DNA from: a virus
Virus record (IMG/VR): IMGVR_UViG_3300042522_000507
Coordinates: 1-23,466 of that record
Direction: 5' to 3' (one strand)
DNA length: 23,466 nt
The translations under genes and the position numbers were made by a program. Shown here in pieces: positions 2,887 through 20,451 of this stretch; the stretch's first letter is position 1; the number at the start of each line of letters is the position of its first letter. A model generated the notes under the pieces. That model did not search any database. It saw nothing but the letters and a program-made list of their open reading frames with translations, and was not told where the DNA came from.

Positions 2887-3070
2887 AGAAGAACTTCAGG
2901 AACTAAATCCTGAGGACTTTGAACTTCCTGATTCCATTGAACTGACTACTCGTAAAAAGTATGCGGGTAAGCCTAAAGTTCGTGCTAACACTTCCCGCCC
3001 ACAGGTAGGAAGTCATGGACCCAAGATCTCTACTCCAACCTTTGGCACCGTTCGCGGTGAATACAACTGA
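2822..3070 (+). CDS. Small hypothetical protein overlapping portal end
   Basis: This 82-residue ORF starts inside the last 65 bases of the portal gene in the +1 frame and continues to 3070, filling what would otherwise be a 200-base gap before the scaffold gene. The N-terminal third is Ser/Pro/Gln-rich (its codons also encode the portal end). It is followed by a strongly acidic stretch (PELEEELQELNPEDFELPD, about residues 19-37) and then a basic, Gly/Pro/Ser-rich C-terminus (TRKKYAGKPKVRANTSRPQ). This acidic-then-basic, low-complexity layout suggests a small, largely unstructured morphogenesis protein. T7 has no counterpart between genes 8 and 9. No motif gives a function. The part beyond the overlap is convincing coding sequence; the exact start is less certain. 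Confidence 0.65.
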   Translation: MSPQTSKKETSPLQSSPQPELEEELQELNPEDFELPDSIELTTRKKYAGKPKVRANTSRPQVGSHGPKISTPTFGTVRGEYN

Positions 3071-3087
3071 TCCACAACCCAACCACC

Positions 3088-3936
3088 ATGCCTGAAATTA
3101 CGTTTGATTCCACTGATGACCTCGACCTTACTGAGGCTCGTCAAACCAACGAAGCACGTCTTCTTGAGATTGGAGATAAACTTCAAAACGAAGAGGATGC
3201 TCGTGAACAACGCAAGTACGATCAAGCCCGAGAGGATGCTGAATCAGAACTGCGGTATGCTGGTAAGTTCAAATCTGCTGAAGATCTGGAGAAAGCATAC
3301 AAAGAGCTAGAGAAGAAGCTTGGTCAGAAGGAAGAGCCTGCTTCTGAGGAAGAGCCAGAGTCAGGGCAAGAGTCGGAGCCAGAGTCAGAAGAGGAAGTTT
3401 CTGAAGAGTCTGAGGAAGTTCAAACTATTCTAAAGGCGTCGGAAGAGTACTACTCCAACGACAACCAGCTCAGCCCTGAGACCCTCCAGAAGCTCAAGGA
3501 ACTGCCCTCTGAAAAGCTGGTAGAGGCTTACCTGGAACTCCAAAAGAACGCCCCTCCTGTGGCCGCTAAGGCCCTCTCCGAGACTGATGCACAGGCCATC
3601 GTTAAGTCCGTTGGTGGTGAAGAGGCCTATGGTCAAACCCTGGCCTGGGCCTCTGAGAACCTTTCTCCTGCTGAGGTTGCTGCCTACGATAATGTCGTGA
3701 ACAGTGGCAACAAGGATGCTATCTTCTTTGCTGTTCAAGCTCTCAACCAGCGATACAAAGATGCTGTTGGGTTTGAAGGGCAGCAGGTGTCCGGCAAGGC
3801 CGTACGTAATAACGTAAAAGGTTTCCGTTCACAAGCCGAATTGGCACGGGCCATCTCTGATCCTCGCTATCGGAATGACCCCGCCTATCGCATGGACATC
3901 GAAACAAAGCTGGCTGCAAGCGGCGATCTGCTCTAA
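3088..3936 (+). CDS. gp9: Capsid assembly scaffolding protein (gp9)
   Basis: The 282-residue product lies between portal and major capsid genes and has the features of a T7-type scaffold, the internal protein that directs coat assembly and leaves before DNA fills the head. The N-terminal 90 residues are charged and helical with many Glu and Lys. Residues of about 85-115 are a very acidic Glu/Ser/Pro low-complexity run (EEPASEEEPESGQESEPESE). The C-terminal part is helical and Ala-rich, ending in a more basic region (KAVRNNVKGFRSQAELARAISDPRYR) likely to bind the coat protein, then a helical tail. T7 gp9 is similarly acidic with a functional C-terminus (about 307 residues). The ATG at 3088 follows a leader without a Shine-Dalgarno sequence (cacaacccaaccacc). 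Confidence 0.9.
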   Translation: MPEITFDSTDDLDLTEARQTNEARLLEIGDKLQNEEDAREQRKYDQAREDAESELRYAGKFKSAEDLEKAYKELEKKLGQKEEPASEEEPESGQESEPESEEEVSEESEEVQTILKASEEYYSNDNQLSPETLQKLKELPSEKLVEAYLELQKNAPPVAAKALSETDAQAIVKSVGGEEAYGQTLAWASENLSPAEVAAYDNVVNSGNKDAIFFAVQALNQRYKDAVGFEGQQVSGKAVRNNVKGFRSQAELARAISDPRYRNDPAYRMDIETKLAASGDLL

Positions 3937-3944
3937 CTGATCGT

Positions 3945-3962
3945 GGGGACTGCAATGTCCCC
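3945..3962 (+). other. Hairpin GGGGAC/GTCCCC after the scaffold gene
   Basis: A perfect 6-bp stem, GGGGAC (3945-3950) with GTCCCC (3957-3962), closes a 6-base loop TGCAAT, 8 bases after the scaffold stop codon. No T-run follows, so it does not look like an intrinsic terminator. It may instead stop exonucleases or be an RNA cleavage site between the scaffold and capsid messages. The same six-base stem recurs in the terminator after the capsid gene. Confidence 0.5.
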
Positions 3963-4011
3963 CTGCCAATTGAGGATGGCAAACCTCGTTAAAAACCTAG
4001 TCATGACTGGA

Positions 4012-4042
4012 GTATTGGCCCACTGAGGTGGATACCCAATAC
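4012..4042 (+). repeat. Stem-loop GTATTGG/CCAATAC in the capsid leader
   Basis: GTATTGG (4012-4018) pairs with CCAATAC (4036-4042); within it CCAC (4020-4023) pairs with GTGG (4028-4031) around a TGAG loop. The upper and lower stems are separated by one base on one side and four on the other. The left arm partly recurs in direct orientation at 4050-4059 (GTATTGCCCA). Confidence 0.5.
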
Positions 4043-4071
4043 AAAGGACGTATTGCCCAAAAACTGAATAC

Positions 4072-4083
4072 TTCGAATTCGAA
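4072..4083 (+). repeat. 12-bp perfect palindrome TTCGAATTCGAA
   Basis: This sequence equals its own reverse complement over 12 bases. It lies 50 bases before the capsid start codon, and its centre is 18 bp from that of the next palindrome. It could be a protein-binding site; no binding protein is known to me. Confidence 0.5.
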
Positions 4084-4089
4084 TAAAAA

Positions 4090-4101
4090 CCAAGTACTTG
4101 G
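4090..4101 (+). repeat. 12-bp perfect palindrome CCAAGTACTTGG
   Basis: A second self-complementary 12-base sequence, 32 bases before the capsid start codon. As an operator it would lie very close to the capsid start; as RNA it could fold only into a small loop, so a double-stranded DNA site or a dimer contact is more plausible. The function is not known. Confidence 0.5.
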
Positions 4102-4133
4102 AAAACTGATAACTTTCTTTTTTCCTTAAACCA

Positions 4134-5135
4134 ATGACTGCAACTCTTACTCAGCTCGGCCAATCTAACAAGGCCGGCGATACTAAAGCTCTTTTTCTGA
4201 AACTGTTTACGGGTGAGGTCTACGAGGCCTTCCGTAATGCTACGATTGCAAAAGGACTGGTTCAGAACCGGACCCTGCGCAACGGCAAAGAAGCCCAGTT
4301 CATTCACACCGGCCGCATCCAAGCTGGTTTCCACACCCCCGGTACTGCTATCCTTGGTAGCGGCAACCCTCCTGTGGCCGAAACCACCATCGCAATGGAT
4401 GACCTGCTGGTTGCCAGCGCGTTCGTTTATGACCTGAACGAGACCCTGGCCCAGTACGACATTCGCGGCCCCATCGCCCGTCAGATCGGCCAGAGCCTGG
4501 CTGAATTCTATGACCGTCGCGTGTTCCGCGTTCTGGACCGTGCCTCTGGCCTGTCCGCTGCTGTGACCGGCGAGCCTGGTGGTTTCCGCGTGAACCTGGG
4601 TCTCAACAAAGAGTACGATGCTCAGGCCCTGGTTGACGGCTTCTTTGAAGCTGCCGCCCGTCTCGATGAAATCGCTGCTCCTAAGGATGGTCGTGTGGCC
4701 GTGCTGGCTCCTCGTCAGTACTACGCCCTGATCAGCCAGGTGGATACCAACATCCTGAACCGTGAATACGGCAACACCCAGGGTAACCTGAACAGCGGTG
4801 AAGGTCTCTACGAGATCGCCGGTATCAAGATCTACAAGTCCAACAACATCCCCTTCCTTGGTAAGTACGGCTCTGCTGCTGGTACTGCCATCGATGCGGC
4901 TGCTGTGACCGGTGAGAACAACAACTACGGTATCGCTACCGACTTCACCAACAGCTGCGGCCTGATCTTCCACCGTGATGCTGCTGGTGTTGTGGAGGCC
5001 ATTGGTCCCTCCGTTCAGACCACCGGTGCTGACACGAAGGTGATCTATCAAGGCGATGTTATCGTGGGCCGTCTGGCTTACGGTGCTGGCCCTGTGCGCG
5101 TTTCCTGCGCCGGTGCCTTCCGTAACGTGGCCTGA
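4134..5135 (+). CDS. gp10: Major capsid protein (gp10)
   Basis: The 333-residue product is the T7-type major coat protein with the HK97 fold (T7 gp10A is 345 residues). Several hundred copies form the icosahedral shell after scaffold-guided assembly. Typical features are the N-terminal TLTQLGQSNKAGDTKALFLK, the loop segment GKEAQFIHTGRIQAGFHTPG, the paired-helix region with QIGQSLAEFYDRRVFRVLDR, and the ending with YQGDVIVGRLAYGAGPVR. Codon use is distinct from the neighbours: strongly G/C-ending and even (CTG, ACC, GGC, CGT); bases 4441-4500 hold 41 G or C against 27 in a sample from gp12 (7441-7500). That fits selection for very high expression. The gene is isolated by a structured leader and a strong terminator. 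No Shine-Dalgarno sequence precedes the ATG. Confidence 0.95.
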   Translation: MTATLTQLGQSNKAGDTKALFLKLFTGEVYEAFRNATIAKGLVQNRTLRNGKEAQFIHTGRIQAGFHTPGTAILGSGNPPVAETTIAMDDLLVASAFVYDLNETLAQYDIRGPIARQIGQSLAEFYDRRVFRVLDRASGLSAAVTGEPGGFRVNLGLNKEYDAQALVDGFFEAAARLDEIAAPKDGRVAVLAPRQYYALISQVDTNILNREYGNTQGNLNSGEGLYEIAGIKIYKSNNIPFLGKYGSAAGTAIDAAAVTGENNNYGIATDFTNSCGLIFHRDAAGVVEAIGPSVQTTGADTKVIYQGDVIVGRLAYGAGPVRVSCAGAFRNVA

Positions 5136-5142
5136 TTTCTTT

Positions 5143-5175
5143 GGGGACTTCTTCGGGGGTCCCCTCCCCTTTTTT
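5143..5175 (+). terminator. Intrinsic terminator after the capsid gene (T-phi position)
   Basis: GGGGACTTC (5143-5151) pairs with GGGGTCCCC (5156-5164) around a TTCG loop, giving a 9-bp stem with two G-U pairs and a stable C(UUCG)G cap, starting 8 bases after the capsid stop. TCCCC and then six T follow (5170-5175). T7 has its main late terminator T-phi in the same place, where leaky termination lowers expression of the tail genes relative to the coat protein. The T-run starts five bases after the stem, so efficiency may be partial. Confidence 0.85.
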
Positions 5176-5188
5176 ACCTGCTCAATCA

Positions 5189-5788
5189 ATGACTACCAAA
5201 CTACAAGCAATCAACCAGATGCTTTCTGGTATTGGGCAGGCACCCGTGGTGTCTCTCGATATTGCAAATCCTGAAATTGCTCTTGCTGAAACCGTACTTG
5301 ATTCGGTCAATCGTGAGGTGCAAGGAGAGGGGTGGCATTTCAATACTGAGGTGAACTATCCGTTTACTGCTGATGTCAACGGGGAGGTTCTGGTTCCTCA
5401 GAATGTGCTACAACTTTCCGATAACAAGATCTCCAATGTCCAGAAGTACCAGACCGTACTGAGGGACGGTAAACTTTACGACAAGGTAAACCACACCTAT
5501 ACCTTTACCGCAGGCAGCACTATTAAGTGTGATGTTGTCTGGTTCTTTAACTTTGAAGATCTTCCTCAGGTCTTTAAGGATTACATCACTCAGCGCTCTG
5601 CTCGTGTCTTTGCTGGACGTGCCCTTGGTTCCCAAGAGATGGTAACCTTTAACGTTCAGGATGAGGTGTTGTTGCGGGCGAATTGTATTGCCTACGACAC
5701 TGACACTTCGGAAGCCAATATCTTTGGTCAGGAGAACGGTCAGAACTTCTACATCTCTTATACCCCCTACCGAGCTATTGCACGATAA
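5189..5788 (+). CDS. gp11: Tail tubular protein A (gp11)
   Basis: The 199-residue product matches T7 gp11 (196 residues), the adaptor ring that joins the portal to the tail nozzle. The N-terminal helix TTKLQAINQMLSGIGQAPV is the family hallmark (helix, then IGxxPV), followed by LDIANPEIALAETVLDSVNREVQGEGWHFN; the middle has the WFFNFEDLPQVFKDYITQRSAR segment typical of the family. The ATG at 5189 is chosen because the longer frame from the TTG at 5141 would translate the terminator hairpin. There is no Shine-Dalgarno sequence. The stop overlaps the next start by one base (TAATG), so it is probably translationally coupled with gp12. Confidence 0.93.
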   Translation: MTTKLQAINQMLSGIGQAPVVSLDIANPEIALAETVLDSVNREVQGEGWHFNTEVNYPFTADVNGEVLVPQNVLQLSDNKISNVQKYQTVLRDGKLYDKVNHTYTFTAGSTIKCDVVWFFNFEDLPQVFKDYITQRSARVFAGRALGSQEMVTFNVQDEVLLRANCIAYDTDTSEANIFGQENGQNFYISYTPYRAIAR

Positions 5789-19392: not shown

Positions 19393-20451
19393 ATGAGCAC
19401 ACTCAACGTAACCAACATCGCCGGCCCATCCAACACCGGCACAGCAGCTACCCTCAGCTCCATCAACGGCGGCCCGATCTCTGGCGCCAGGAACCGCATC
19501 ATCAATGGCAACTTTGACATCTGGCAAAGGGGCACATCGACTGGAAGCTGGGTGGCGCCTATTACCAATTACTATTGGGCAGATCGCTGGGTTGCTAATT
19601 CAAGCGGCACAGGCGGCGCAGGGTCTCTTAGCCAACAAGCCTTTACCCCAGGCCAAACCGACGTACCGGGTGAGCCAACATTTTTTCAACGCTGGCAAAT
19701 CACTTCTGCAGCCAGTGGCCAAACCGCTGGTAACTGCTGGATTGAACAGCGAATTGAAGATGTTCGTACCCTAGCCGGGCAAACGGCAACTCTTAGCTTT
19801 TATGCCAAGGGTACCGGTACTTTGCCAAACATTTTTGCCACCCAGACCTTTGGATCAGGTGGGTCAACACAGGTTGCATATACATTGGCATCAAACGTGG
19901 TGCTCAGTTCAACATGGACAAAGTACACCTACACAGTGTCTCTCGCGTCTATCAGCGGAAAGACCATCGGCACAAACCACTATGTTGGCATAACCTTTAT
20001 GGTGCCACTCAACACCACTTACACGTTCGACCTGGCGCAAGTGCAGTTTGAACCGGGCGCCGTCGCCACCCCGTTTGAGCGGCGGAGCTACGGGCAGGAG
20101 CTAAGTCTGTGTCAGAGGTATTTTGAAACTTCCTTTGATGGTGTCGCGGTAGGCACTGCTGGAAACACTGCCAGCTGTTTGTTCCATGTGAACATTAACG
20201 TCAGCGACTTTTATAGCTACGGCCCCTGCCAGTATCAGCAACAGAAAAGGGCAACACCTACAGTTACCATCTACTCTCCGTTAAATGGTGCGACTGGTGT
20301 TCTGTACAATCTCAGTACAAACTCAAACGTAGGCAATGCTGGGGTCGCCAGTGTAGGTACGCGAGGGTTCCGGCTGTTTTGTAGTAACAGCGCGATGAGT
20401 CCGGTAAACAGTGCTCACGCCATCCATTACACCGCCTCTGCTGAGTTGTAA
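19393..20451 (+). CDS. Tail fibre / receptor-binding protein with jelly-roll domain
   Basis: The 352-residue product is the longest distal fibre candidate. After a short N-terminal attachment part (TLNVTNIAGPSNTGTAATLS) it has the sequence RNRIINGNFDIWQRGTS (residues 33-49) and ADRW, the usual start of a carbohydrate-binding-like jelly-roll in phage fibres. Aromatic and Gly-rich strands follow (CWIEQRIEDVRTLAGQTATL, SFYAKGTGTLP), and the domain closes with FDLAQVQFEPGAVATPFERR and QELSLCQRYFETS, again typical. The C-terminal 100 residues vary and may bind the receptor. I infer that this is the main host-range determinant of the cassette. It starts 2 bases after the previous gene. Confidence 0.82.
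   Translation: MSTLNVTNIAGPSNTGTAATLSSINGGPISGARNRIINGNFDIWQRGTSTGSWVAPITNYYWADRWVANSSGTGGAGSLSQQAFTPGQTDVPGEPTFFQRWQITSAASGQTAGNCWIEQRIEDVRTLAGQTATLSFYAKGTGTLPNIFATQTFGSGGSTQVAYTLASNVVLSSTWTKYTYTVSLASISGKTIGTNHYVGITFMVPLNTTYTFDLAQVQFEPGAVATPFERRSYGQELSLCQRYFETSFDGVAVGTAGNTASCLFHVNINVSDFYSYGPCQYQQQKRATPTVTIYSPLNGATGVLYNLSTNSNVGNAGVASVGTRGFRLFCSNSAMSPVNSAHAIHYTASAEL

Follow-up and report, generated by a model that had tools for sequence, protein, structure and literature searches.

T7-like cyanophages abound in seas and lakes, and their major capsid protein (MCP) needs high expression. How such a phage makes far more capsid than the products of the neighbouring genes is a question raised here by a gap, crowded with perfect palindromes, that precedes the capsid gene in the window, by which is meant the whole stretch of DNA analysed, a virus fragment of 23,466 bases from a T7-like cyanopodovirus. 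In the collection searched, the nearest named phage is Synechococcus phage S-CBP2, with 73% DNA identity across the capsid gene. The genes at the left of the window include the portal (Pfam Head-tail_con), and the 197-base gap (3937-4133) is bounded by the following genes:

3088..3936, plus strand: gene for the T7-type scaffold (capsid assembly), 5' of the gap, 282 aa (Pfam PF05396, E 2.8e-9)
4134..5135, plus strand: MCP gene, 333 aa (Pfam PF21703, Gp10A-like, E 2e-65)

Directly 3' of the MCP gene, at 5143-5164, stands a strong terminator-like hairpin with a T run. The gap itself carries the following elements:

3945..3962, plus strand: 5' module of the gap, hairpin GGGGAC-UGCAAU-GUCCCC (DNA GGGGAC-TGCAAT-GTCCCC), seen in the sequence
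3972..3997, plus strand: H-type pseudoknot, from loop-tail covariation and conserved bases
3997..4010, plus strand: P1, self-complementary hairpin CUAGUCAUGACUGG, from the palindrome scan and covariation in relatives
4012..4042, plus strand: bulged stem, from covariation (8 of 11 pairs changed on both sides) and the predicted fold
4072..4083, plus strand: P2, perfect palindrome TTCGAATTCGAA, from the palindrome scan and close-family comparison
4090..4101, plus strand: P3, perfect palindrome CCAAGTACTTGG, centre 38 nt 5' of the MCP start codon, from the palindrome scan and relatives
4100..4125, plus strand: S4, alternative helix of GGAAAA (4100-4105) with TTTTCC (4120-4125), from a permutation test

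The original prediction described a cluster of palindromes too dense for chance, and this description holds. The perfect palindromes lie where it had placed them, at 3999-4008 (AGTCATGACT), 4072-4083 and 4090-4101, and the two stem-loops that it had named, 3945-3962 and 4012-4042, are present in the sequence; the latter also appears in the predicted fold, which begins at 3965, so that 3945-3962 lies outside its scope. The chance of 1 in 4096 given for a 12-bp palindrome is correct for a single position in random sequence of equal base composition. At that rate, the six perfect 12-nt palindromes of the whole window compare with 5.7 by chance, showing no overall excess; two of the six fall inside the gap. 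When the gap was shuffled 5000 times with its dinucleotides preserved, at least two 12-mers arose at a frequency of 0.0004, and no shuffle gave as many as three palindromes of 10 nt or longer. A search for the same palindromes elsewhere gave no second copy of the three among the window's palindromes of at least 10 nt. Six full cyanophage genomes each hold 9-13 palindromes of 12 nt, which is the chance number, and those of the gap are not repeated; where a gap has palindromes, it is therefore the gap that is special, not the genome.

Relatives were collected by four IMG/VR scans with different capsid proteins as queries, which gave 290 loci. Start positions were entered for 229 of them, and 228 loci together with the window had at least 140 nt upstream; these 229 upstream regions comprise 166 distinct ones, judged on the last 130 nt. 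The remaining loci were duplicate copies of a contig, had no MCP start or too little upstream sequence, or were excluded by hand. The window's own group is that with MCPs 86-100% identical. In the 166 distinct gaps, perfect 12-mers occupy 168 of 31,137 centres, compared with 10 of 147,316 in MCP coding sequence and 23 of 142,831 further upstream.

The start-proximal palindrome, P3, is the most regular. In 149 of the 166 gaps, a perfect palindrome spanning at least 10 nt (10-18 nt) has its centre at -62 to -30 before the start codon, as against 3.9% of shuffled zones; the centres lie mostly at -38 to -42. The S-CBP4 query gave it in 58 of 58 gaps, the S-CBP2 query in 25 of 28 and the Syn5 query in 24 of 34; in the window's group, 42 of 46 gaps have it. 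For the window, L069 and L072, the palindrome counted is P2, which lies in the same zone and equals P3 in length. The palindromes of the 149 gaps comprise 38 different sequences with ten central tetranucleotides (GATC, GCGC, CCGG, GTAC, AGCT, CATG, GGCC, TCGA, AATT, CTAG). Several of the 38 are length variants of a single core (AAGTACTT, AAGCGCTT), so this is turnover of lineages and not 38 independent sequences; the 38 also include P2 of the window's closest group and a palindrome of locus L059 within an inserted ORF. Within the window's group, ten forms of P3 occur, with six centres (L059 excluded). Besides that of the window, examples are CTAAGTACTTAG, CCAAGCGCTTGG, CCAACATGTTGG, CTCAGATCTGAG, TCTCTAAGCGCTTAGAGA, GTTCTAGAAC and GAATCGATTC. 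The arms are partly conserved inside a lineage, not between lineages. A palindrome of 8 nt or longer persists at P2 in 33 of the 46 gaps of the close family, compared with 9.8% when shuffled, and its commonest forms are ATCCGGAT, AGGATCCT and that of the window. The refuting outcome named for the prediction, a lack of conservation in close relatives, did not arise: what they conserve is position and symmetry, and sequence much less.

Among named phages, P3 is present in KBS-P-1A (CCAAACGTTTGG at -43), P-SSP2 (TACGTACGTA at -44) and NATL1A-7 (TCTCAACGTTGAGA at -46). The gaps of P60, S-RIP1 and Syn5 have no 12-mer; 10-mers stand instead in Syn5 (GTTCTAGAAC) and, by eye, in S-RIP1 (CAAACGTTTG). 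In the 200 nt before the capsid gene, no 10-nt palindrome was found in T7, Klebsiella phage kpssk3, Pseudomonas phage Pf-10, the pelagiphages HTVC025P and HTVC201P, or uvMED S31-C1, and K1F has one, starting at -25. A second perfect palindrome, CCGTCTAGACGG, was observed behind the bulged stem of P-SSP2 (L428, at -105) and KBS-P-1A (L429, at -91). In 17 gaps, the P3 zone has no palindrome that reaches 10 nt: six with an ORF there (L028, L029, L063, L068, L213, L233), ten from the Syn5 query and L237.

Comparison of the gap in relatives for compensatory changes, proposed as a check, shows that the leader covaries, both in the loop-tail pairing of the pseudoknot and in the stems of the close family. 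In the window, the pseudoknot stem is formed by GAGG 3972-3975 with CCUC 3984-3987 and is followed by the A-rich strand GUUAAAAA (3988-3995); GG 3978-3979 of the loop pairs with CC 3996-3997, only two pairs where most relatives have three to five. The hairpin stems of relatives are GAGG/CCUC, GUGG/CCAC, GACC/GGUC, GAGC/GCUC and AAGG/CCUU, each hairpin being followed by the same A-rich strand or a near variant and then by a strand complementary to the hairpin loop (UGGG/CCCA, CACG/CGUG, GCAC/GUGC, GGA/UCC, CGG/CCG, GAU/AUC). The covariation of loop and tail was reached in none of 5000 permutations with 25 distinct pairs, and in 4 of 20,000 with one row per tail; the anchor was found in 67 of the 166 gaps, and two spurious distinct rows (L032, L294) are included.

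For the stems, a close-family alignment of 18 sequences (17 distinct rows) was used, without the window and L078, whose 5' strand MAFFT had displaced. Over the whole structure, 12 pairs are changed on both sides against 5.0 in shuffles, and none of 500 shuffles reaches 12. P1 has seven pairs in this alignment, including the centre, with all cells paired and four of the seven changed on both sides; the centre pair is AU in 11 cases, CG in 4 and UA in 1. In the window, P1 holds one U.G pair (3998/4009) around its perfect core 3999-4008 and shares C3997 with the pseudoknot. One G.U pair occurs in six distinct forms of P1 (the window, L231, L217/L229, L209 and two Syn5-like forms), and no A.C pair was found among the forms, three printed A.C rows being other elements or a bulged form and a seventh G.U row another element. 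Exceptions are L218, with an A.A mismatch, and L214 and L404, each of which by eye has a one-base bulge. By this variation, G.U without A.C and a centre changing on both sides, P1 looks as if it acts at the RNA level. The bulged stem is composed of an outer helix of seven pairs (GUAUUGG 4012-4018 with CCAAUAC 4036-4042), an unpaired C at 4019, an inner four-pair hairpin CCAC-UGAG-GUGG (4020-4031) and AUAC (4032-4035). It was the only element recovered by RNAalifold on the diverse MAFFT alignment, since MAFFT fails to line up palindromes. Between the covarying helices, bases in and around GUUAAAAAC, GGCC and GA-A-CC are invariant or nearly so. The close-family covariance model scores the window at 87.3 bits; phages like S-CBP2 score more weakly, some only near E 0.1.

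Hairpins similar to parts of this core were also noticed elsewhere. A hairpin with GUUAAAAACC stands before other genes in other phage contigs (L115 near 4161, L127 near 1245, L134 at 1276-1326 on the minus strand), and its stems differ yet pair (GAGG/CCUC, GUGG/CCAC). The pseudoknot part may belong to a wider phage RNA motif. The manA RNA, suggested by an Hsp20-like gene (by eye) behind the similar hairpin in L115, was rejected, being absent from the Rfam matches. In HTVC201P (L424; GACCCCUUGCGAGGGACAAUC) and uvMED S31-C1 (L425; GGCCCUUCUAGGAGGACACCC), a hairpin resembling the bulged stem is seen by eye before the capsid gene, and the element may extend beyond cyanophages.

Near the start codon, S4 pairs the 3' arm of P3 with the pyrimidine tract directly 5' of the start codon. 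S4 and P3 partly exclude each other because GG 4100-4101 is common to both. The mean longest run of pairs is 4.76, compared with 4.08 when permuted, and none of 1000 permutations reaches 4.76. The helices are GGAAAA/TTTTCC (the window by eye, L007) and elsewhere AGAGAG/CTCTCT, GGGAAT/ATTCCC, GAGGAA/TTCCTC and TGAGAAT/ATTCTCA; Syn5-like rows have little S4 pairing. This covariation of the 3' arm points to an RNA level for P3. A separate argument from wobble pairs (21 G.U against 4 A.C breaks) was dropped: G.U was observed 20 times as compared with 20.6 when permuted, so that the G.U excess at the ends of P3 arises from flank composition and wobble pairs are no sign of P3 acting as RNA.

The 5' module varies in kind. 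In the 166 distinct gaps, a hairpin of the window's type was found in 16, a tRNA-like T-arm with at least six of seven acceptor pairs in 60, a hairpin with loop CACCUCAGAGUCGGA in 62, a T-arm only in 3, and none by script in 25, some of which give a relaxed ARAGORN match. The figure of 60 is an upper one, since six of seven pairs often arise by chance; nevertheless, acceptor pairing averages 6.21 against 5.79 permuted over 56 distinct regions, and the largest of 300 permutations is 5.98. The loop CACCUCAGAGUCGGA is a nearly invariant 15 nt, and its hairpin stands upstream of the leader also in S-CBP1 (L003) and S-CBP4 (L004). Default ARAGORN found no complete tRNA in 24 loci; at a relaxed threshold, 29 of the 166 gaps match, five without a proper anticodon, and NATL1A-7 has an annotated tRNA-Gly at this position. 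The tRNA-like modules are varied (L007, L013, L019, L058, L303, L335, NATL1A-7 and others) and lie mostly 125-190 nt before the MCP; by eye, many have a 5-6 nt anticodon loop or acceptor and T arms only, and they are interchangeable with plain hairpins. The proposal of an RNA-processing region is borne out indirectly, in its general direction, by the conserved covarying leader and by a tRNA-like module in up to 60 of 166 gaps.

Taken together, the comparison supports the view that the gap is a conserved structured RNA leader, which would act in cis as the 5' leader of the capsid mRNA. The parts so supported are the pseudoknot, P1, the bulged stem with a stable tetraloop, P2, P3 about 40 nt before the start codon, and S4. 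Post-transcriptional control of the capsid mRNA is the best reading, and dimerisation we infer. Symmetry kept while the letters change suggests that the messenger pairs with its own second copy and is not a docking site for a single protein; with a probability of about one half, this self-pairing would be what the palindromes most likely serve. It is proposed that the palindromes are held self-complementary through the centre by selection, since the RNA pairs with a second copy, as kissing loops or as an extended duplex of 10-18 bp. Such pairing could stabilise or gather the capsid mRNA, and could either release the S4 helix next to the start codon or close it; the tRNA-like module or hairpin would probably mark a processing site that splits the capsid mRNA from the scaffold message. 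The outcome would be post-transcriptional control of capsid synthesis in phages without an internal promoter there. For this explanation as a whole, self-pairing of the leader RNA together with capsid control, we see the chances as evenly balanced.

The palindromes could also be ordinary intramolecular hairpins of a stabilising or RNase-resistant 5' leader, with centres that are palindromic and have no dimer function. This would agree with the G.U pairs of P1, with the rest of the leader, which behaves as intramolecular RNA structure, and with P3 hairpins of 14-18 nt, predicted at -0.7 to -5.6 kcal/mol; for short RNA palindromes, intramolecular folding is usually faster than dimerisation. However, a stem with a 4-nt loop needs no central complementarity, so that the two central bases would be free to vary, yet self-complementarity is kept through the centre by complementary change, across the 38 sequences and ten centres of the P3 zone and the AU, CG and UA centres of P1. 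Of the distinct gap hairpins with five Watson-Crick pairs and a 4-nt loop, 16 of 29 have a palindromic loop, compared with 3 of 113 in MCP coding sequence and 8 of 167 upstream. An internal control is given by the bulged stem of these leaders: the script picks it in 159 of the 166 gaps, giving 45 distinct hairpins, and its loop is UNCG or GNRA in 31 of these and palindromic in none (the other 14 include at least one wrong pick, CUUG-AGGA-UGGG, in ten loci), indicating that an ordinary hairpin is built differently in these leaders. Predicted hairpin energy is 0 or worse for 18 of the 38 P3-zone sequences, too weak for a hairpin to form (17 of 36 without two odd sequences), and for 54 of the 149 gaps, whereas predicted dimer energies range from -8.6 to -30.7 kcal/mol, flanking bases being ignored in both cases. 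Weak hairpins with strong dimers, as predicted here, are what is expected of a duplex between two copies or of a double-stranded DNA site. The predicted dimer of the full window leader pairs via P1. Whole-leader stability is unremarkable (z -1.23 for the window, -0.48 for S-CBP2), which counts against our best reading. Ordinary hairpins are in our view an unlikely explanation, though one to be taken seriously.

The other possibility to which weak hairpins and strong duplexes lead is that P3, and perhaps P2, is a double-stranded DNA site recognised by its symmetry or shape, with a homodimeric protein or nuclease as its partner, and that the RNA elements around it are separate. A sequence-specific operator was rejected as first choice on account of sequence turnover: the idea of a regulator-binding site finds no support in view of the ten P3 forms with six centres in the closest group and the 38 sequences with ten centres overall, which a sequence-specific protein would hardly tolerate. 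The operator test gave no conserved half-site among relatives and no repeat sites elsewhere in the genome. A reader of symmetry is kept as a rival for P3. The P3 palindromes are perfect, internal mismatches being very rare; they give no wobble signal in excess of what composition explains, and their arms are partly conserved within a lineage. Moreover, in some lineages an ORF replaces P2 and P3: in L028, L029, L059, L063, L068, L213 and L233, an ORF with an AWAAGLFEGEG-like stretch ends 11-22 nt before the MCP. That of L059 has 130 aa with the stretch AAGLFEGEGSI, comes after the leader core, in place of P2, P3 and S4, so that L059 counts among the 149 only through a chance palindrome inside it. 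The ORF looks, by eye, like a single-motif LAGLIDADG homing endonuclease; the L059 copy matched no Pfam family at E 1. Single-motif LAGLIDADG homing endonucleases act as homodimers. As the ORF stands where the palindromes were, P3 can be lost in some lineages. Against a DNA site argue the number of sequences and centres among related phages, the chance rate of 12-nt palindromes in the six genomes, P1, which looks RNA-level, and the 3' arm of P3, which covaries with S4. We consider this explanation improbable, and self-pairing of the messenger remains the preferred reading.

It may be asked whether the pseudoknot, P1 and the bulged stem with its invariant unpaired bases form a core that represents a new class of ligand-binding riboswitch or of ribozyme. 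Invariant or near-invariant bases between covarying helices are in line with this, as is a weak match to SAM-II (RF00521) in L232. However, that match, at 16.0 bits (E 0.14), is 20 bits short of the gathering score of 36, and SAM-II was rejected; the match is absent in the window, in the S-CBP2-like L206 and in ten further loci scanned. The likeness led to the loop-tail permutation test, which supported the pseudoknot and not SAM-II. No Rfam 15 family was found at gathering score in the leaders of 13 sources, nor in the further leaders scanned, and nine terminator-like sites in 3000-5500 include none within 3937-4133 that could serve as a switch. A riboswitch or ribozyme is thus very improbable. 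At some distance from the leader, Glutamine-II riboswitches (RF01704, above gathering) were observed a few hundred bases before the MCP in L003 (978-1061), L004 (1032-1096) and L114 (3661-3715); in S-CBP1 and S-CBP4, the Glutamine-II phages of L003 and L004, psbA is directly upstream.

The idea of promoter parts in the gap also finds no support. No sigma-70-like site was found in 3000-5500, and the Syn5 RNA polymerase promoter ATTGGGCACCCGTAA is absent from the window at up to three mismatches. The Syn5 genome carries the 15-bp promoter exactly twice, at 4929 and 44797, far from its MCP at 20017, and S-CBP2 has one copy with two mismatches, elsewhere and on the other strand. Since the Syn5 promoters are not at the MCP, a gap promoter for that enzyme cannot account for the capsid level of Syn5. 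Two promoters are described for the Syn5 genome, one of which serves over 37 kb (PMC3950665). That the gap is mainly a phage late promoter, like phi10 before T7 gene 10, would suit the annotation of phi10 in the corresponding T7 gap and the expression required of a capsid gene, but given these promoter positions and conserved parts that covary as RNA it is scarcely probable at all.

If the messenger does pair with itself, the several self-complementary elements of the leader might bring capsid mRNAs into association in the infected cell, as a concentration-dependent switch, because P3 competes with the helix beside the start codon, and may gather them at the places of head assembly; we regard this extension as possible but doubtful. 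If true, a bacterial system would have an mRNA that regulates as a homodimer; according to a review, functional RNA oligomers have rarely been seen in nature (PMC7357161). Elements whose symmetry is better conserved than their sequence also make a clear case of selection on self-complementarity, and a conserved leader before exactly this gene makes the question of capsid overproduction testable. Among the matches listed by a literature search, covering main texts of mostly non-subscription papers, apparently no paper deals with this leader.

The leader shares features with several known systems. Like tRNAs and tRNA-like structures, up to 60 of the 166 gaps have a T-arm with a UUCGAUU-type loop and acceptor pairing upstream; unlike in tRNA, many of these modules have, by eye, an anticodon loop of 5-6 nt or no D and anticodon arms, and the window has a plain hairpin instead. 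In SAM-II and other H-type pseudoknots, likewise, a hairpin loop pairs with a strand after a GUUAAA-type linker; the leader's loop is far shorter than that of SAM-II, whose downstream conserved part is not seen here. GP20-b RNA (RF03003) overlaps the window as a full-model match at 3938-3999, with 20.6 bits against a gathering score of 36.2 (E 0.073), and has no match in ten other loci at E 0.5. With T7, the window shares the scaffold-capsid gap that serves the capsid gene, where T7 has phi10 and the gene 10 leader, and the Tphi terminator stands at the place matching the terminator-like hairpin 5143-5164. However, the T7 gap has a promoter, and palindromes of 10 nt or longer are absent from the 200 nt preceding gene 10, whereas the cyanophages have a structured RNA, and Syn5, unlike T7, has no promoter of its own polymerase in this gap. 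Palindromic elements of RNA dimerisation are reviewed for HIV-1 DIS, the oskar 3'UTR, Moloney SL2 and the guanidine-II riboswitch (PMC7357161). As described there, these elements are self-complementary, like those of the leader, and the RNA can kiss or form an extended duplex. The leader differs from the DIS type in standing before the capsid gene of a DNA phage, in having two to three elements in a row, with dimers that are predicted only, and in that the entire element of 10-18 nt is palindromic.
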